From Oligoflexia bacterium (GTDB lineage: Bacteria > Bdellovibrionota > Bacteriovoracia > Bacteriovoracales > Bacteriovoracaceae), in contig JADGAN010000032.1 of assembly GCA_015231955.1 (NCBI GenBank), positions 1 through 59,663 on the forward strand: DNA of 59,663 nucleotides. Reading direction: 5' to 3'. The translations under genes and the position numbers were made by a program. Below, piece by piece: positions 8,580-38,311 of this stretch. The stretch's first letter is position 1. Every line of letters starts with the position of its first letter. A model generated the notes under the pieces. That model ran no database searches. It had not been told where the DNA came from and saw only the letters and a list, made by a program, of their open reading frames with translations.

Positions 8580-10112
8580 TTGAGTATCGATAAAAAAATT
8601 ATTGAAAATTTTGAAGATTTGCAACTTGCTTGTAAAAAATTAAGAAGTGAAGGCAAAAGTTTTTCTTTATGCCAAGGTCATTTTAACGTTATTCATCCCG
8701 GGCATTTGCGATTTTTAGAGAGTTCTAAAAAGGAAGCAGATGTTTTGTTTGTAGCATTACATGATGAGACGTTGGTGGATGAAAGTGTACGGGAGCGATT
8801 TTATAATAGTGGAGAAAGAGCAAGAGGTGTCGCCTCGCTTGCTTGTGTCGATCATGTGGTTATTGTTTCAAAAAAAAATTTCAATAAAGTCGTGAGTTAT
8901 ATCTCTCCTGGAATTTATGTTTTAGGCAATGAATTCAAGGGTAGTCGCTGTCCGCGGATTCAAAAATCGATCGATATTGTTAATCGCAATAACGGAAAAA
9001 TTATCTACAGTTCTGGGGTGATTCAATATAGCAATACCGAAATTTTTAAAAAAAATGTTGGACGCATAAGAAATGAGAGAATTGATCTTTTCCATAAAGC
9101 GCTTAAAAAGCAACATGTAGAAGTTGCAGAATTAAAAAATTTATTAGCACGCTTTAAGAACACGCGTATTTTAGTTGTTGGAGATTTAATTGTCGATCAA
9201 TATTGCGCTTGTGATCCCCTAGGCGTGAGTTCTGAGGCCCCTGTTTTGGTATTAAAAGAGTTAAAACGTAGAAATTTCACTGGTGGAGCAGGGATTGTTG
9301 CAAGGAATATCTCTTCTTTAGGTGCTAAGTGTTCATATATCACCATTACCGGAAAAGATTTATTTGGGGAGTCTGCCATTAAATCGCTTGAAAAAGAAAA
9401 TGTGGTGGTCAAAGCATTTTTAGATGTGGATAGGCCTACGACTCTTAAAATACGTTATTTGGTAGGAGTGCAGAAAGTTTTAAGAGTTTCTCGCCTTGAA
9501 GATAAAATTATTTCCGATGAGTTAGAAGAAAAAATTATTACAGAAATTGATAGAGTTGCTGAATTTGTTGATGGCATTGTCTTAAGTGATTTCAGTTATG
9601 GATTAGTTACTAGCAATATCATCAAGAAGGTTAAAGAGGTTTCAGAGGAATTTGGGATTAAAATATTTGCCGATTCTCAGTCTAGCAGTCAGATGGGTAA
9701 TATCTTGAAATTTAGAGATTTTTTTCTTCTATCTCCTAATGAAAAAGAGGCGCGATTAGCACTAGCTGATAAATATAGTGGACTGGAATTGATTGGTAAG
9801 AAATTGTTACTAAAATCTAATGTCAATAATGTTATCTTGAAATTGGGTGCTGATGGGCTTATCATCTTTTCACTAAAGGATAACGATTCTTTTGTGGCCA
9901 CCGAGCACTTTCCTGCATTAAACCCTTATCCTGTTGATGTTATGGGAGCAGGTGATGCTCTGTTATCTACAATGGCCTTGTCAACTTGTTCGGGGGCAAA
10001 TATTTTTGAAGCAACCGCCATGGCCTCTATTATTGCGGCGATTTCTGTAAGTAAACTTGGAAATGTTCCTGTCAAAATTCATGAAGTTGAAGATTGGCTA
10101 AATAAGATATAA
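8580..10112 (+). CDS. nucleotidyltransferase - PfkB kinase fusion, HldE with domains swapped
   Basis: Residues 1 to about 165 form an RfaE2-like nucleotidyltransferase, with CQGHFNVIHPGH holding the HxGH motif at 39-42. Residues from about 170 to 510 form an RfaE1-like PfkB sugar kinase, with GGAGIVARN near the substrate site and GAGD at 456-459 giving catalytic D459. HldE makes ADP-heptose with the kinase first and the transferase second; here the order is reversed. One expected activity is phosphorylation of heptose 7-phosphate at C1 followed by nucleotidyl transfer. Translation starts at TTG 8580 behind GGGGA; an ATG at 8564 is out of frame and stops quickly. The DNA looks more AT-rich than the genes right of 40 kb. 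The sugar could be something other than heptose. Confidence 0.78.
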   Translation: MSIDKKIIENFEDLQLACKKLRSEGKSFSLCQGHFNVIHPGHLRFLESSKKEADVLFVALHDETLVDESVRERFYNSGERARGVASLACVDHVVIVSKKNFNKVVSYISPGIYVLGNEFKGSRCPRIQKSIDIVNRNNGKIIYSSGVIQYSNTEIFKKNVGRIRNERIDLFHKALKKQHVEVAELKNLLARFKNTRILVVGDLIVDQYCACDPLGVSSEAPVLVLKELKRRNFTGGAGIVARNISSLGAKCSYITITGKDLFGESAIKSLEKENVVVKAFLDVDRPTTLKIRYLVGVQKVLRVSRLEDKIISDELEEKIITEIDRVAEFVDGIVLSDFSYGLVTSNIIKKVKEVSEEFGIKIFADSQSSSQMGNILKFRDFFLLSPNEKEARLALADKYSGLELIGKKLLLKSNVNNVILKLGADGLIIFSLKDNDSFVATEHFPALNPYPVDVMGAGDALLSTMALSTCSGANIFEATAMASIIAAISVSKLGNVPVKIHEVEDWLNKI

Positions 10113-30083: not shown

Positions 30084-32075
30084 ATGAAAGAGTATGATTT
30101 TTTATTTTTTCAAGAATTAATTAAATTATTAACTGGAATCACCATAGGATCTGATCAAAGTAAAATAGTTGAGACTCGCATCGAGCAACGCATGGGAATA
30201 TTGCGGATGAACTCTATTCGGGAGTATGTCGATTATTTACAAAATTATCCTGGATTGGAAATACCTTATTTGATTTCGGTGATGACTACACATACAACTC
30301 ATTTTTTTCGGGAGGAAGAGCATTTTGAATATTTAAAAAAAATATTTTTACCTGAATGGATCAAAGAAAAGCGTACAGATTTAAATTTTAATTGTTGGTC
30401 AGCCGCTTGCTCTTCAGGAGAGGAGGTGTATAGTATCGCTATGACTGTAGATGATTTTTTTAGAAATCATCACCCAAACATCAATGTTAAAATTATTGGC
30501 AGTGATATTGATATTAAAATGATTGAAAAAAGCGAGAAAGGAATCTATAAGAGTGAGCAAATAAAAGAGATCCAATCCGATTGGCAAGAGAGATATTTTT
30601 CTTGGGGAACTGGTGAGATTGCAAATTTTATTAAAATTAAAAATGAGATTAAGAAAACAGTTAAATTTGTACGATTAAACCTACTCTCGCCTCCTTATTT
30701 TGAGAGCAACGAAAACAAATTATTTGATGTATTATTCCTCCGCAACGTTTTTATTTATTTTGATAAAGCTACGGTAAAAAAAATCATTGATGCAGTGGCC
30801 ATGCATCTAAAACCACAAGGGATACTGATCTTAGGACATGTTGAGAATTTAATCGATGTTGATTCTCCCTTCACCTTGATCTCTAATTCTATCTATAAAT
30901 TTAAAGATAAAGTTCATGCAATGAATGCGAAATTAAGCAATGTGAGTATAAGTAGTAAAGAAGAAAAAAAAGAGGGATTTAAGCAAAAATATCGAATTTT
31001 AATTGTCGATGATTCATCAGCAGTAAGATTAGCACTAAAGAAAATATTATCCATTGAGTATGGATTTGTTGTGGTGGGGGAAGCAGAAAGTCCCATTGAA
31101 GCTGATCTGATTTTAAAAAAAGAGAAAGTGGATGTGATTACTTTGGATATCAATATGGATAAGAAAGATGGGATAACTTATCTAGAGGAGTTAACTAGAA
31201 AAGCTCATCCCCCCATCATTATGATCAGTTCCATCTCTAAAGAAGATGCTTTAAGTACACTGAGGGCCTTTGAATATGGAGCATTTGACTATATAGAAAA
31301 ACCAGATATGAATCAGCTTTACGATATTCAAGATCATATCCGACAAGTTATTACAGAGGCAGGCCAACGTGGCATAATGCCTGCGCGGGATGGGTTTGAG
31401 ATACCAAAACGGGTTTCCTTCTCTCCGATTACTGGAGAACAACATACTAATTCTGAAAAAATGTTGATCTTTAATCCCTTCTCCATGGAGAAAAAGATCA
31501 TTGTGATTGGCGCTTCCACTGGGGGAATTGTTGCCATCAAAAGTATTTTGGAGCGATTAAGGCCACCTACTCCACCCATTTTAATTGTTCAACACATTCC
31601 GCCAATCTTTTCTATGGTGTTTGCAGAGCGCCTACAGGGAACGTGTAAGATTAGAGTAAAAGAGGCAAATGATGGAGAGGAGATTGCGGCTTCTACTGCT
31701 TACATTGCACCAGGTGGCAGCCAGATGCGAGTGGTACAACGATCACACAAATATGTGATTAATATTACCAGTGATCCACCAGTCAATAAACTCCGCCCAT
31801 CAGTGGATTACCTGATGTTTTCTATTGTGGACTGTATGATCAAGGATAAGGATTTTGGGCAAGTGGTAGGAGTGATTTTAACAGGAATGGGCGCTGATGG
31901 TGCCAAGGGAATGTTGGCACTTCGAGAGAGTGGGGCCACAACTTTAGGACAAGATGAGGCGACCGCTGTCGTGTATGGAATGCCGAAGGCGGCAAAAGCA
32001 ATAGGAGCAGTTGCATTGGAAACCTCACTCTATGAGATCCCGGAGGCCATTGTGCGTGCATGCGATGGAAATTAG
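30084..32075 (+). CDS. CheR-CheB fusion: MCP methyltransferase plus methylesterase
   Basis: 663 aa in one open frame. Residues about 1-280 are CheR, with FREEEHFEYL, the SAM site WSAACSSGEE and LFLRNVFIYF. A Lys/Glu-rich linker follows. Residues about 305-425 are a receiver domain (IVDDSSAVR; acceptor Asp in LDINMD). Residues about 470-660 are the CheB esterase, with Ser in GASTGG, His in VQHIPP and Asp in GMGADG. So the opposing adaptation enzymes are one protein here, in the order CheR-REC-CheB. It is last of the cheA operon. No separate cheR, cheB or cheY is in the window. Confidence 0.92.
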   Translation: MKEYDFLFFQELIKLLTGITIGSDQSKIVETRIEQRMGILRMNSIREYVDYLQNYPGLEIPYLISVMTTHTTHFFREEEHFEYLKKIFLPEWIKEKRTDLNFNCWSAACSSGEEVYSIAMTVDDFFRNHHPNINVKIIGSDIDIKMIEKSEKGIYKSEQIKEIQSDWQERYFSWGTGEIANFIKIKNEIKKTVKFVRLNLLSPPYFESNENKLFDVLFLRNVFIYFDKATVKKIIDAVAMHLKPQGILILGHVENLIDVDSPFTLISNSIYKFKDKVHAMNAKLSNVSISSKEEKKEGFKQKYRILIVDDSSAVRLALKKILSIEYGFVVVGEAESPIEADLILKKEKVDVITLDINMDKKDGITYLEELTRKAHPPIIMISSISKEDALSTLRAFEYGAFDYIEKPDMNQLYDIQDHIRQVITEAGQRGIMPARDGFEIPKRVSFSPITGEQHTNSEKMLIFNPFSMEKKIIVIGASTGGIVAIKSILERLRPPTPPILIVQHIPPIFSMVFAERLQGTCKIRVKEANDGEEIAASTAYIAPGGSQMRVVQRSHKYVINITSDPPVNKLRPSVDYLMFSIVDCMIKDKDFGQVVGVILTGMGADGAKGMLALRESGATTLGQDEATAVVYGMPKAAKAIGAVALETSLYEIPEAIVRACDGN

Positions 32076-34037: not shown

Positions 34038-34976
34038 CTATTTGTAGAGAGTTATCAAGAACTCTAAGGCAATAAAGAGTTGTACAAAGATTGCTTGAAT
34101 CTCCGAGTAGACTCTGAGTGTTTCGTGTGTAGGAGAGAGGGTTTTAAGCGTACAGAGAAAGCGCAAATAAGGAAGCATCGTTAGTAGTGCCAGAGTTATA
34201 AAGAGGGCAATGGTTACTGCTAAAGAGTTTGTCAAATAAAGGTAATAGCTCACTCCAGAAAAAGTTATAAGCTGTGTGAGGAGGGCAGAAATTACCGCTA
34301 TTTTCGGCCCTAAAATTTTAGAGTATGTGGTATAGCTAGTTTCCAGTTGAGGTGGTTTGATTTTGCGAGAGAGCTCCCAGTTGGTAGAGAGGAAAGCAAG
34401 CGGAATCGCCATTAAGAAAGGGATGAAGCGCGCCTCTTGCGGCAAGATTCCTTGCTGGAGATTGATCCTAGAAAATTCAACAAAACCCAGAGAGAGATAG
34501 AGTAGGTAGCAATAGATGATAGGATGATGAGACAGTAATGCCAGGGGTAGGCTTTTTCTCATCCGCTCCTCAATAAAAAACCACTTGAGCATCAGCAGAG
34601 AATAAACAAGTACAAGTAGCATCCCCACGGCCAAGAGAGAACTCCAGGCATTGAGAAGAATCATGATAATAACAATGCACACGCCTAATAATTTTAAATC
34701 ACCATGCAAGACTCTGCCACTAGGAAGAGGGCGATTGGGAAAATTTTTTAAATCATCTTGATAATCTTTAAACTCATCCATAACACGAATGAGTAGCACA
34801 AAGAACAGTTGTGATATTGTAGCAAGAACAAGTGGCCAGTAGCTCATTCCTGCTATCAGCGTGTATCCATTTAATTTAGTCATCGCCATAAAAAAAACGA
34901 TAGACATGATAATGGGAGCGAGTGCATGTGCTGGAGGATACATCTCTTGAAGATAAATTAGAATTCTTTTTAACAT
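34038..34976 (-). CDS. UbiA-type prenyltransferase
   Basis: 312 aa with about eight transmembrane helices. The first Asp-rich motif is RVMDEFKDYQDD (near residue 65-75), followed by NRPLPSGRV, a UbiA hallmark. The second motif is weak: NWELSRKIKPP replaces the usual DxxxD. It would move an isoprenoid from a diphosphate onto an acceptor in the inner membrane. GGAG sits 8 bp from ATG. It is third in the operon behind the dikinase-like and CarS-like genes, with gaps of 30-36 bp. The acceptor is unknown; quinone or heme genes are absent here. Confidence 0.8.
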   Translation of the reverse strand: MLKRILIYLQEMYPPAHALAPIIMSIVFFMAMTKLNGYTLIAGMSYWPLVLATISQLFFVLLIRVMDEFKDYQDDLKNFPNRPLPSGRVLHGDLKLLGVCIVIIMILLNAWSSLLAVGMLLVLVYSLLMLKWFFIEERMRKSLPLALLSHHPIIYCYLLYLSLGFVEFSRINLQQGILPQEARFIPFLMAIPLAFLSTNWELSRKIKPPQLETSYTTYSKILGPKIAVISALLTQLITFSGVSYYLYLTNSLAVTIALFITLALLTMLPYLRFLCTLKTLSPTHETLRVYSEIQAIFVQLFIALEFLITLYK

Positions 34977-35006
34977 CGTGGTGACTCCGGTTGAATTGAT
35001 CTATTT

Positions 35007-35567
35007 TTAAAAAGGCTCTTTTCTTAATTTAAGCAAGAAGAGGAGAACATTAAAAAAGAGGTGGGTAAAGGTACCAATAAAAACAAAAATAAGAATGGAG
35101 ACAAGGGGAGGTTTTAAAAAAAGAACATAGGCCAAGATACACCCCACTCCTGAGTCTGCCTGGTCAATAATAGCGTGAATAATTTTTGCTTTAGTGGTGG
35201 AAGGCAGCTTTCCTTCAGCGATGCCGTGGCTTCGTTTATAGTAGGAATTAGGAAGTTCCGATAGTGTGTATCCAAGTCCAAGGGTCACTCCAAAAAGCAG
35301 TAATTCCCAAGAGGAGAGTGATGCAAAGGAGAGAGAAGTCTTGGCCATCATGGGTTCTAATTGCGCGGTGATGACAACACCCCACCAAGCAAAGAGGGAC
35401 ATGAGCATAATGCCTCGATAGGTTTTGTTCTTACCAAAATGCTTGGTGGAAATTGGAATTTTCAAACAAGAGAGCAAGTCTAAACGCACACAAATCATAT
35501 GCAAGACTCCTGCAATGATAAGCGGAATCAGCAGGATGAGAGACTCTATTACATTTGTCATGATCAT
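35007..35567 (-). CDS. CDP-archaeol synthase-like (CarS) cytidylyltransferase
   Basis: 186 aa, about five membrane helices. It has the CarS-type order: GKNKTYRG near 45-52, SELPNSYYKRSHGI in the middle loop, and IDQADSGVG as the D-Q-x-D motif. The archaeal family moves CMP from CTP to an unsaturated ether lipid phosphate; bacterial members exist whose substrates are largely uncharacterised. An in-frame ATG two codons later is equally possible. It is flanked by a UbiA prenyltransferase and a dikinase-like phosphotransferase. Confidence 0.75.
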   Translation of the reverse strand: MIMTNVIESLILLIPLIIAGVLHMICVRLDLLSCLKIPISTKHFGKNKTYRGIMLMSLFAWWGVVITAQLEPMMAKTSLSFASLSSWELLLFGVTLGLGYTLSELPNSYYKRSHGIAEGKLPSTTKAKIIHAIIDQADSGVGCILAYVLFLKPPLVSILIFVFIGTFTHLFFNVLLFLLKLRKEPF

Positions 35568-35593
35568 ATTAAGGGGTGTCCTTTCTTTTATTT

Positions 35594-35614
35594 GACTATT
35601 CGACTATTCGACTA
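35594..35614. repeat. octamer tandem repeat over the dikinase-like stop codon
   Basis: GACTATTC is repeated twice, then GACTA. It covers the stop codon and the first bases of the gap before the CarS-like gene. A duplicated gene end is the simplest view. Confidence 0.6.
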
Positions 35615-38246
35615 AGGTGACTTCACCTTTGTTCCCATCAATATGTATAATCTGTCCCGTTGTAAGGTGCTTGGTGATGCCTTTGATGTTAAGAACTGCC
35701 GGGATACCATATTCACGCCCAATAACCGCAGCATGAGATAAAACACCACCCACTTCAGTGACAACGGCAGAGACCAGCCCTAAAATAGCGGTCCATCCTG
35801 GATCAGTAAATTTAGTTACCAAAATTTCTCCAGGGCAAATTGTATTGGCCTCATTAAGAGAGAGGATGACTCGAACCTTGCCTGTATAAGTGCCAGGGCT
35901 ACAGCCAATACCTTTAAAGATAGTTTTATTGTCACTATTTTTTTGAATAAAGCTATCCTCTGTAAGGCCACGAATGCCTCTACCAAATTCGTTAGGGGCA
36001 TCCAAATTTTTAAGTCCTAAAAATATTTTTTTTCGGTAGACCAAAGCGGGTAATAGAAAATTAATACGCTCACAAAGAATCTCTTTAATCAGAGCATCGT
36101 CATCATTTTCCATGATCAAGCTGCTACTGTTATTGTTATCATAAGTTTGCTGTGGGGAGGTAGTGTTGCAGCGGCCACCACTTTGAAGTGCACAAGTACT
36201 AAGCATTCTTTCCCGTTTTACATCGATGATTTCAAGACTTAATTGCAAGAGTTCGCTTACTTCAAAAAAGAAGACATCATTTACCTCTGTAGTAAGCCCA
36301 AGGTTTTGAAGGCGCTTGCCAATTTCTAAAATATAGAGGCGTACAACATAATAACTACGAGTGGAGAATTCTCGCATCTTTTCTCGGTTGACTAAAAAGT
36401 AGCGCAGCCGAGAGATTAATTTCTTAAAGCGTTGCTTGTAGTAAAATTTCTTCAAGAAGAGTAGAGAGGAGTTATCAATACGCTTAAAGAGTGATTGTTG
36501 TGCTTCTGTATAACGTTTTTTTTGGGTTTGTTCACTTTGCCGTGGATTGTTTAAAGAGATCTCTTGCTCATTTTGCAAAAATACAGCAATCATCTCTTTG
36601 ATCATCTCTGGACGCTCACCCCAGCGTTCTGTCATTAGATCGAGCTCGCTTGGGCCATGATGATAGTGGATTTTTAAAAAATTTTGTAATTCATTTTGCC
36701 ACGGACTTGAATCAATACCATGCTCTTTGGCGATTATATAGAGAGCGTTAATCCCTTTTTGGATCTCTAAATGGGATACTTCAGAAAGCCCCGACATCAG
36801 ATCGATGAGAGAAGTCTCTCCCTTGGTCTCCTTATCCAATTTCCGCATGAAATCTTTAAATCCATTTTGAAAATTGGAATTGTTGTAGATGGTGCGGAAA
36901 TAGGAGCGTTCGGTGGTAAGATAGTAGTCACTAATAACATCAAAAAAGCTTTTAAAAAGTTCATATGTTGAAAGCGTGGAGAGGATGCCAGCGGAGATAA
37001 GATTTTTTTTATCAATTTCATCAAAATTTAACTTATACTCTTCCACCATATCAATGCAGCGATCATACTCACGGTTAATACCCCAGAGTGCTCGAAGCCC
37101 TGCGATTATGGTCTTAAAGTTGTTAGGGGCAACGAAGGCCCCCTTCGAACCATAATCTTTTTGAATTCCAATATCACGATCAAAAGACTCCTCATGAAAA
37201 CCTGGAACATTTTGCAGTGCTCGTTTGATGGCACCTGCATTCCAGTACACACGTGCATAGTAATAGGGCATTAGCTCTTGCGGGGAGACATCTAAAGGCA
37301 GATTGATGCGCTCAAAATAGGAGGACATGCTGGGAGCAAAGGAGAGCTCGTAGAGCGAGTACATCATGGGTGTGCAGGCCCTAGCAGAGACACCACCATC
37401 TTTTAAATCGGCATTGGTGAGTTCTTCAACGTCAATACGCCAATTAATAGTAGTAATCGGCCGAGTTTGTAGCACCCACAATTGATTTTCTTGATCGATG
37501 GCCCATTCGATGTCTTGGGGGTGTTGGAAGCGCGATTGAATATCCAAGATAGTAGCGGCCAAAGCGTAGACTTGCTGTTGGTTTAAGATAACTTGCTCAT
37601 CACCACTCTCATGAGAAATAACTTTTAAATTACGATAGTCGACCACATACTGAGTGGGGGTGGTATGTCCCGAAACCAACTTTTCTCCAAGACCATGACA
37701 GACCTCTAATAAGAAGTGCTCTTCTTGCCCAGTGAGTGGATTCATGGAAAAGGCCACGCCTGCATATTTAGCAGGAACCATTTTTTGAATCACCACGGAG
37801 AGCTTGGACTTTAGCTCTTGGGGATTAATATTAATCTTTTTATTATTAACATAGCTTAGGACACGCTCGCTTTCGGCCGAAAGAAAACAGTTATTGAGTG
37901 ATTGGATTAAGGTTTGTAGCGAGTCAACATCTAAAAAAGTCTCATAAAGCCCAGCAAAGCTAGCATTGGCCAAGTCTTCAAACTGTCCACTCGATCTTAC
38001 TGCAACTGGAAAGCCACCAATCTGGTCGATAATCTCCTGTAGAATCTCTTCTTGTGTTTCGGCCCTATTTTGCTGTAGTAATTGGAATTGCTCATAGGTT
38101 ATCACTTGCGCCTTTGGAACAGGATAACCATGATTGGTCAACAAGTGTAAGTTGTATGCTTTTTTTCCCAGCTTCTGCTCGAGTGAGGAACTAAGAGTAC
38201 CTCCTACAGCAATGCTATACAGTGATTGGCCATTATATGCGTTCAA
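35604..38246 (-). CDS. PEP-synthase-like phosphotransferase (ATP-grasp + His domain, no PEP barrel)
   Basis: 880 aa. Residues about 1-330 are the PPDK/PpsA-type ATP-grasp domain (AVRSSGQFED, AFSMNPLTG, then EWAID and LQTRPI). A long helical middle region follows (about 340-770). The swivelling His domain ends the protein, with predicted phospho-acceptor H838 in GGVLSHAAVIGREYG. The C-terminal TIM barrel that binds PEP is missing, as in rifampin phosphotransferase. So it should pass a phosphate from ATP via His to an unknown acceptor held by the middle domain. It starts at TTG 38246 behind AGGAGG. First gene of the CarS-UbiA operon, which hints at a lipid or prenyl acceptor. Confidence 0.83.
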   Translation of the reverse strand: MNAYNGQSLYSIAVGGTLSSSLEQKLGKKAYNLHLLTNHGYPVPKAQVITYEQFQLLQQNRAETQEEILQEIIDQIGGFPVAVRSSGQFEDLANASFAGLYETFLDVDSLQTLIQSLNNCFLSAESERVLSYVNNKKININPQELKSKLSVVIQKMVPAKYAGVAFSMNPLTGQEEHFLLEVCHGLGEKLVSGHTTPTQYVVDYRNLKVISHESGDEQVILNQQQVYALAATILDIQSRFQHPQDIEWAIDQENQLWVLQTRPITTINWRIDVEELTNADLKDGGVSARACTPMMYSLYELSFAPSMSSYFERINLPLDVSPQELMPYYYARVYWNAGAIKRALQNVPGFHEESFDRDIGIQKDYGSKGAFVAPNNFKTIIAGLRALWGINREYDRCIDMVEEYKLNFDEIDKKNLISAGILSTLSTYELFKSFFDVISDYYLTTERSYFRTIYNNSNFQNGFKDFMRKLDKETKGETSLIDLMSGLSEVSHLEIQKGINALYIIAKEHGIDSSPWQNELQNFLKIHYHHGPSELDLMTERWGERPEMIKEMIAVFLQNEQEISLNNPRQSEQTQKKRYTEAQQSLFKRIDNSSLLFLKKFYYKQRFKKLISRLRYFLVNREKMREFSTRSYYVVRLYILEIGKRLQNLGLTTEVNDVFFFEVSELLQLSLEIIDVKRERMLSTCALQSGGRCNTTSPQQTYDNNNSSSLIMENDDDALIKEILCERINFLLPALVYRKKIFLGLKNLDAPNEFGRGIRGLTEDSFIQKNSDNKTIFKGIGCSPGTYTGKVRVILSLNEANTICPGEILVTKFTDPGWTAILGLVSAVVTEVGGVLSHAAVIGREYGIPAVLNIKGITKHLTTGQIIHIDGNKGEVTLVE

Positions 38247-38311
38247 GATGCCTCCTCTTCTCTTTCCTTACGTGACTTGCCTTTTACTATTTTTTTTCTG
38301 TCAGGAATTCT

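Follow-up and report, generated by a model that had tools for sequence, protein, structure and literature searches.

Relation of the Operon to Described Enzymes

For RPH, the domain architecture, the swivel histidine His825 and the roles of Arg666-Glu667 have been described (PMC4844700), and HpeHI represents a two-component dikinase (PMC12167813). CDP-archaeol synthase (CarS, PF01864) and DGGGP synthase of the UbiA superfamily are known from archaea, serine and ethanolamine phospholipids are made in archaea and bacteria by CarS or CdsA, an archaetidyl- or phosphatidylserine synthase and a decarboxylase, and the bacterial ceramide operon contains spt, aca/CC_1154/yghO and epi (PMC9386255). In the window, i.e., the whole stretch of 59,663 bp that was analyzed (JADGAN010000032.1, the entire contig C40 of the 5.6 Mb Oligoflexia bacterium assembly GCA_015231955.1), an RPH-like dikinase, a CarS-like cytidylyltransferase and a UbiA-fold membrane protein are encoded side by side. 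With a probability of roughly 0.6 this operon belongs to a bacterial pathway of phospholipid type that is as yet undescribed, to which it contributes the activation half and one enzyme of lipid building. The operon and its conserved residues are as follows (dikinase type A is defined below):

38251..38258, minus strand: strong Shine-Dalgarno sequence AGAGGAGG, read from the sequence, 4 bases 5' of the dikinase start
35604..38246, minus strand: type-A RPH-like dikinase, 880 amino acids (aa), TTG start; N-terminal ATP-grasp, helical substrate domain, C-terminal phosphohistidine swivel domain
36381..36386, minus strand: Arg621-Glu622 codons of the substrate domain, invariant in type A; counterparts of RPH Arg666-Glu667 ('REYPK' ending at 670)
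35733..35735, minus strand: codon of His838 (GGVLSHAAVIGRE), the predicted phosphate-carrying histidine, invariant in the type-A alignment and aligned with His825 of RPH
35007..35567, minus strand: CarS-like CTP:lipid-phosphate cytidylyltransferase (predicted), 186 aa
35412..35438, minus strand: CarS motif FGKNKTYRG; F44, G45, N47, K48, T49 and G52 invariant in 24 aligned proteins
35232..35258, minus strand: CarS motif ELPNSYYKR; E104, L105, P106, N107, S108, K111 and R112 invariant; counterpart in Aeropyrum CarS (ApCarS) S(F)xKRR
35154..35165, minus strand: CarS motif DQAD; D135 and D138 invariant; ApCarS has DQLD
34038..34976, minus strand: UbiA-fold membrane protein, 312 aa, PRK13592/PRK05951 subfamily
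34716..34787, minus strand: first Asp-rich motif RVMDEFKDYQDDLKNFPNRPLPSG, kept; R64, D75 and G87 invariant, D67, K70, D71, P80 and R82 at least 90% conserved
34308..34376, minus strand: second motif ELSRKIKPPQLETSYTTYSKILG, Asp replaced (ExxRK...E); E201, Y218 and G223 invariant, R204, K205 and E212 at least 90% conserved

Open reading frames (ORFs) were called as the longest non-overlapping frames. The three genes have exactly the coordinates and strand given in an earlier note on this DNA, which had placed them in a single operon; the intergenic gaps, 36 bp between dikinase and CarS-like gene and 30 bp between CarS-like and UbiA-like gene, agree with this. Scans of the window for promoters and terminators gave no signal above chance. 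A gene for a PLP enzyme of methionine gamma-lyase/cystathionine gamma-synthase type (33986-32709, 51 bp downstream of the UbiA-like gene) is possibly co-transcribed; it does not recur beside the operon in relatives and was excluded from the gene set. All three proteins are distant from their nearest families, i.e., RPH, CDP-archaeol synthase and DGGGP synthase.

The dikinase carries PF01326 (PPDK_N, 1.3e-49) and, C-terminally at residues 805-874, PF00391 (PEP-utilizers, 2.3e-22), and neither Pfam nor NCBIfam detected a PEP/TIM-barrel domain in it. The ATP/His phosphotransferase lacking a PEP barrel that the earlier note had recognized is therefore borne out, and the domain content points to a small-molecule rather than a pyruvate type. 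The type-A profile found RPH (5fbs, 408 bits, covering both ends) as its best solved match, and the AlphaFold2 model (mean pLDDT 84.0) returned RPH 5hv1 as top Foldseek match (E 9.7e-35). In its predicted architecture the window kinase is thus of the type known from antibiotic resistance. With the Listeria RPH (5fbs/5hv1) and with HpeHI it shares an ATP-grasp domain, a central substrate domain, a C-terminal histidine swivel and the absence of a PEP barrel (PMC4844700, PMC12167813), and the Lys, Arg, Thr, RE and His positions of RPH are retained. It differs from RPH in its sequence, which is about 20% identical in the fold alignment, and in its setting within a CTP-lipid operon. The protein passes no NCBIfam cut-off; for the RPH model NF041857 it reaches 226.5 bits against a cut-off of 999.

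For the CarS-like protein, NCBIfam proposes CDP-2,3-bis-(O-geranylgeranyl)-sn-glycerol synthase (PRK04032, 2.3e-10; 40.6 bits against an equivalog cut-off of 148), and the only solved match of the family profile is ApCarS (5guf, 6.4e-7, full length). The motifs NKT, S-KR and DQxD are common to both families, whereas the archaeal (G)DMAGS segment is replaced by ELPNS. These findings support the CTP:lipid-phosphate cytidylyltransferase postulated in the earlier note as the predicted activity. With PF01864 the protein scores 21.9 bits (2e-4), 0.1 bit under the gathering threshold of 22.0, while a Photorhabdus relative scores above it with 31.7 bits. Because of this narrow shortfall, the gene escaped detection when its genome was searched with PF01864, and family profiles alone consequently understate the CarS-like group. 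No CarS relative was found on viral contigs, and no match to the Photorhabdus CarS on plasmids.

The UbiA-like protein matches the NCBIfam prenyltransferase model PRK13592 (8.7e-36) and stays under the cut-off of PF01040 (3.7e-5). Its AlphaFold2 model (mean pLDDT 92.7) is most similar in fold to DGGGP synthase 6m31 (Foldseek 2.2e-4; VIA-align Z 17.7, root-mean-square deviation 4.0, 275 residues aligned; Z 12-13 for unrelated prenyl synthases), which is also the first match of the UbiA profile (8.3e-8). Shared with DGGGP synthase (6m31/7bpu) are, besides fold and profile, RPLPSG and the first Asp-rich motif, DExxDxxxD, which fits (N/D)DxxDxxxD. The second Asp-rich motif, REIVKDFEDMEGD in DGGGP synthase, is lost; its replacement ExxRK...E is conserved to at least 90% in 31 aligned UbiA-like proteins. 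The donor or metal chemistry may therefore differ from that of ordinary prenyltransferases. The predicted catalytic residues are intact in the dikinase, in the CarS-like protein and in the first UbiA motif.

Conservation of the Gene Set Across Bacteria

The CarS alignment was scanned against 84,980 species genomes, and the best 80 of 528 confirmed relatives were kept. Together with the window and a locus of genome G004 they form a set of 82 loci, a sample biased to proteins close to that of the window, whose closest relative in the scan derives from an Oligoflexia metagenome-assembled genome. The combination of CarS, RPH-like dikinase and UbiA is present in 47 of the 82 loci, distributed over Bdellovibrionota, Gammaproteobacteria (Photorhabdus, Thalassolituus, Endozoicomonas), Clostridia and other Firmicutes (Butyrivibrio, Clostridium, Vagococcus), Deltaproteobacteria, Bacteroidales and Gemmatimonadetes. 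Neighboring genes were grouped as graph communities. The most widely recurring are CarS (76 loci), UbiA (54), a GNAT acyltransferase (46), type-B dikinase (45), type-A dikinase (38), CDP-alcohol phosphotransferase (37), phosphatidylserine decarboxylase (28), a fusion of HMG-CoA reductase with an APH-type kinase (HMGR::APH, 24) and an AMP-ligase (22).

Recurrent adjacent pairs are CarS and dikinase A (17 loci), dikinase A and phosphotransferase (15), phosphotransferase and decarboxylase (19), UbiA and dikinase B (26), and dikinase B and GNAT (31). Clostridia have the order CarS - dikinase A - phosphotransferase - decarboxylase - UbiA - dikinase B - GNAT (- AMP-ligase), and gammaproteobacterial operons the order UbiA - HMGR::APH - dikinase B - GNAT - AMP-ligase - phosphotransferase - CarS. 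In seven loci the CDP-alcohol phosphotransferase and CarS are fused to one protein. The family motif DX2DGX2AR...GX3DX3D (as used in PMC9246714) is present in all 37 phosphotransferases, and the self-cleaving site (GGST/LGST type) is kept as GGST in 28 of 29 decarboxylases of relatives; for the Vagococcus phosphotransferase, archaetidylserine synthase is the best NCBIfam match and bacterial PssA a close second. Enzyme types of serine/ethanolamine phospholipid synthesis thus adjoin in the Clostridia operons, and CarS stands beside the phosphotransferase in those of Gammaproteobacteria as well. Two elements set the gene set apart from that synthesis, namely the separate kinase step, by an RPH-like dikinase or an APH domain, and the dedicated group of UbiA, dikinase B, AMP-ligase and GNAT.

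A survey of 211 genomes of the phylum gave a consistent picture (all Fisher p-values in this work are uncorrected for shared descent). RPH-like dikinases occur in 16/16 genomes with CarS vs. 60/195 others (p 2.6e-8), and 14 of these CarS genomes carry one within about 6 kb of CarS on the same contig; for type A the counts are 9/16 vs. 5/195 (p 1e-8). UbiA was present in 67/76 genomes with a dikinase vs. 14/135 without (p 9e-31), and in 12/16 with CarS vs. 69/195 without (p 0.002). The gene set is not a product of chance. Co-conservation of the three families, whose absence in relatives would have refuted the proposal of the earlier note, is hence found both in the 82 loci and within the phylum.

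Two Dikinases and a Proposed Lipid-Building Module

A tree of 90 dikinases separates clade B (45 proteins), clade A (38) and a small group C (7), and the window protein belongs to type A. Across the 82 loci type A adjoins CarS, and type B adjoins UbiA and GNAT. NCBIfam names the type-B proteins phosphoenolpyruvate synthase (PRK06241.2-3, PRK06241.2-4), a name that is not supported by their domain order, since the histidine domain is C-terminal as in RPH (PMC4844700). Type A (38 loci) and HMGR::APH (24 loci) share none of the 82 loci (Fisher p 5e-9, with the same reservation on descent), and each of the two states is represented in Bdellovibrionota, Gammaproteobacteria, Deltaproteobacteria, Bacteroidota and Clostridia. 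From this mutual exclusion it follows that dikinase A probably supplies the phosphate used by CarS; the simplest reading is that dikinase A and the APH domain are alternative, unrelated kinases for the alcohol which CarS activates.

The HMGR::APH fusions (locus L118, 1292-3853, and 23 other loci, in gammaproteobacterial operons) mostly retain the HMG-binding-type motifs DKK and GQDxA and the kinase motifs HxDFN and DWE, so that a mevalonate-like step is possible.

In most of the examined Bdellovibrionota loci without CarS, UbiA, type-B dikinase and AMP-ligase form a separate operon. The AMP-ligase is OleC-like and in one case (genome G017, contig C11; locus L125, 7476-9962) fused with UbiA to a protein of 828 aa, with dikinase B on one side and GNAT on the other. 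The head-group genes beside UbiA vary by locus: the CarS set, PEP mutase with phosphonopyruvate decarboxylase (genome G011), or DUF3419 (two further loci). UbiA, dikinase B, AMP-ligase and GNAT thus form a module of their own, which, as the head genes beside it vary, can be read as lipid-building with exchangeable heads.

Several loci illustrate this variation. In G011 (contig C53; L043, 8355-14634) a UbiA-GNAT pair precedes genes for PEP mutase, phosphonopyruvate decarboxylase, an iron ADH of phosphonate type and a ketosynthase-like protein, possibly a phosphonolipid cluster. The BtaA-like DUF3419 genes beside the UbiA/dikinase-B module (L131, 8277-9398; L137, 2028-3158; one with HMGR::APH) possibly indicate a homoserine or betaine-type head group. 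AAR-type reductase fusions lie near UbiA or CarS in L129 (13249-15291) and in L119 (4520-7360), the latter with a class-III aminotransferase.

Proposed Pathway

According to the proposed phospholipid-type pathway, ATP would charge the C-terminal histidine of the type-A dikinase, and the phosphate would then be transferred to the hydroxyl group of a lipid alcohol in the membrane, with conversion of ATP to AMP and Pi. Homology, motifs and fusions suggest that the CarS-like enzyme would turn the lipid phosphate into a CDP-lipid; a CDP-alcohol phosphotransferase would then replace CMP by serine, and a phosphatidylserine decarboxylase-type enzyme would yield an ethanolamine head. A phospholipid head group fits the fusion of CarS with the phosphotransferase and the linkage of the decarboxylase. 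UbiA, which is linked to the type-B dikinase, the AMP-ligase and the GNAT acyltransferase, would act earlier and make the lipid alcohol together with them. In other lineages phosphotransferase and decarboxylase belong to the same operon; in this genome homologs are encoded elsewhere.

The earlier note had proposed a linear series of prenylation, phosphorylation and activation by three enzymes. The types of kinase and cytidylyltransferase in this series are retained; UbiA, however, is mainly associated with type B, AMP-ligase and GNAT, and prenylation is putative. Likewise, the three genes make up part of the pathway, not its whole, as elsewhere the operon continues with phosphotransferase, decarboxylase, a second dikinase, GNAT and AMP-ligase. 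A published description of this gene combination, of which the earlier note knew none, was not found in the open-licence literature either. A paper on the lipocone, which mentions UbiA, HMG-CoA reductase and CDP-alcohol phosphotransferase, was set aside, as its operons differ from this set.

Several observations weigh against the proposed pathway. The activities of the set are predicted and the product lipid is putative. Dikinases of this shape also ligate (PigC/RedH), so that phosphorylation is not the sole possible chemistry. Within the phylum, 7 of the 16 CarS genomes lack type A and 4 lack UbiA, and some relatives, e.g., G024, carry the three genes scattered. Finally, phosphotransferase and decarboxylase lie away from the operon in the genome studied here and may be plain housekeeping enzymes.

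A wider reading, which we put forward tentatively and at somewhat less than even odds, is that of a widespread undescribed class of bacterial phospholipids with a backbone of its own, other than glycerol-phosphate. Its assembly would fall to the UbiA protein devoid of the second Asp motif, acting with an RPH-like dikinase, AMP-ligase and GNAT. A second dikinase or the APH domain of the HMG-CoA reductase fusion would phosphorylate it, CarS would activate it, and the head, varying by lineage, would be serine, ethanolamine, phosphonate or of homoserine type. If this were true, CarS-type CDP-lipid chemistry would be a recurrent bacterial pathway, present in gut and rumen Clostridia, Photorhabdus, marine Gammaproteobacteria and bacterial predators, and CarS in a genome or metagenome would be no evidence of archaeal lipids. 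In many genomes, proteins now annotated as phosphoenolpyruvate synthase, prenyltransferase or CDP-archaeol synthase would receive a function, and the dikinase would be the first RPH-type lipid kinase known to us. Owing to the operon structure, the question can be addressed directly in those carriers that grow in culture.

Alternative Explanations

Of the other explanations a sphingolipid pathway survives best, although we consider it unlikely. Here a ceramide or sphingoid base would take the place of the lipid alcohol, type A would represent a novel kind of ceramide kinase, CarS would form CDP-ceramide, and ceramide phosphoethanolamine would be the product. The genome contains, on contig C19 (L161, 4671-8130), consecutive genes of SPT-like (serine-palmitoyltransferase-like), GNAT and SDR type, as does G024 (contig C22; L168, 6227-9846). 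Both clusters match the content of the ceramide operon (PMC9386255) and probably represent one; for the C19 SPT-like gene, SPT is the best-matching family, at a score under its cut-off. In G028 (L039) a type-A dikinase is clustered with an SPT-like enzyme, a lipid kinase and an SDR, with no CarS. On these grounds, among the candidate substrates for this host, a ceramide or long-chain base is the most concrete one. The operon GNAT is homologous to the GNAT of the ceramide pathway (SPT, aca/yghO N-acyltransferase, SDR), and this genome carries both; the SPT-linked GNATs, however, form a clade of their own (support 1.0), and no SPT-like gene recurs near the 82 loci or in their conserved operons. 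Moreover, we know of no role for UbiA in ceramide synthesis.

Clearly less probable is a secondary-metabolite cluster, in which the dikinases would act as PigC/RedH-like ligases and the product would be a small lipophilic molecule instead of a membrane lipid. The dikinases are matched by the NCBIfam profiles of PigC (about 1e-82) and RedH (about 1e-75), the reductase fusion near UbiA in L129 resembles PigE of prodigiosin synthesis, and P450, MMPL, ABC and LolA-like genes recur near the 82 loci. The PigC scores are far under the family cut-off, though, and similar to those of RPH, no polyketide- or peptide-synthase core recurs near the 82 loci, and the CarS-phosphotransferase fusion and the decarboxylase linkage fit a phospholipid head.

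The likeness to archaeal ether lipid synthesis drawn in the earlier note does not hold in its simple form. An archaeal-type pathway acquired by horizontal transfer, with UbiA as DGGGP synthase and CarS forming CDP-archaeol, would agree with the archaeal origin of the closest solved relatives of both proteins, and is nevertheless very improbable. In 15 genomes that carry the operon or parts of it, no GGGP synthase (PF01884) exceeded the cut-off, whereas the control search in archaea gave matches (G1P dehydrogenase was not searched); the simple reading as archaeal ether lipids was rejected for this reason. Furthermore, the UbiA-like protein is 13-15% identical by structure to the archaeal enzymes and devoid of their second Asp motif, and no prenyl-diphosphate-synthase cluster is among the recurring neighbors of the 82 loci. 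The archaeal route also has no kinase step, as the phosphate arrives with glycerol-1-phosphate (PMC9385802).

A UbiA enzyme of quinone biosynthesis with unrelated neighbors, which the earlier note had regarded as damaging to its proposal, can be dismissed almost completely: the UbiA fold would agree with it, but the NCBIfam hits contain no quinone UbiA/MenA family, and both the dikinase-UbiA association in the phylum and the conserved operons contradict it.

Other Genes of the Genome and the Window

Counterparts of the recurring neighbors are scattered over other contigs of this genome: a type-B dikinase ahead of a tgt-like gene (C18), an operon-type GNAT (C11), a second UbiA (C37), canonical and divergent decarboxylases (C58, C11) and a PssA-like gene (C48). 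Homologs of the CDP-alcohol phosphotransferase are located on C48, C49 and C60, none of them adjoining the window operon. On C49 (L162, 4061-9290) genes for a class-III aminotransferase, a nucleotidyltransferase-like protein, a CDP-alcohol phosphotransferase and a flippase-like protein, partly common to G024, belong to another CDP-alcohol pathway.

Further ORFs of the window encode a fusion of CheR, a receiver domain and CheB (30084-32075, 663 aa) within a chemotaxis cluster, and an HldE-like cytidylyltransferase-PfkB protein with the cytidylyltransferase domain first (8580-10112). Near the latter gene, HAD, nucleotidyltransferase and SIS-like ORFs (148-2231) form a sugar-phosphate or heptose cluster. 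Between 2184 and 16224, radical SAM-like ORFs, two of them confirmed by Pfam and one with a B12-binding domain, lie among TPP-enzyme, aminotransferase-like and SDR genes in a biosynthetic cluster.

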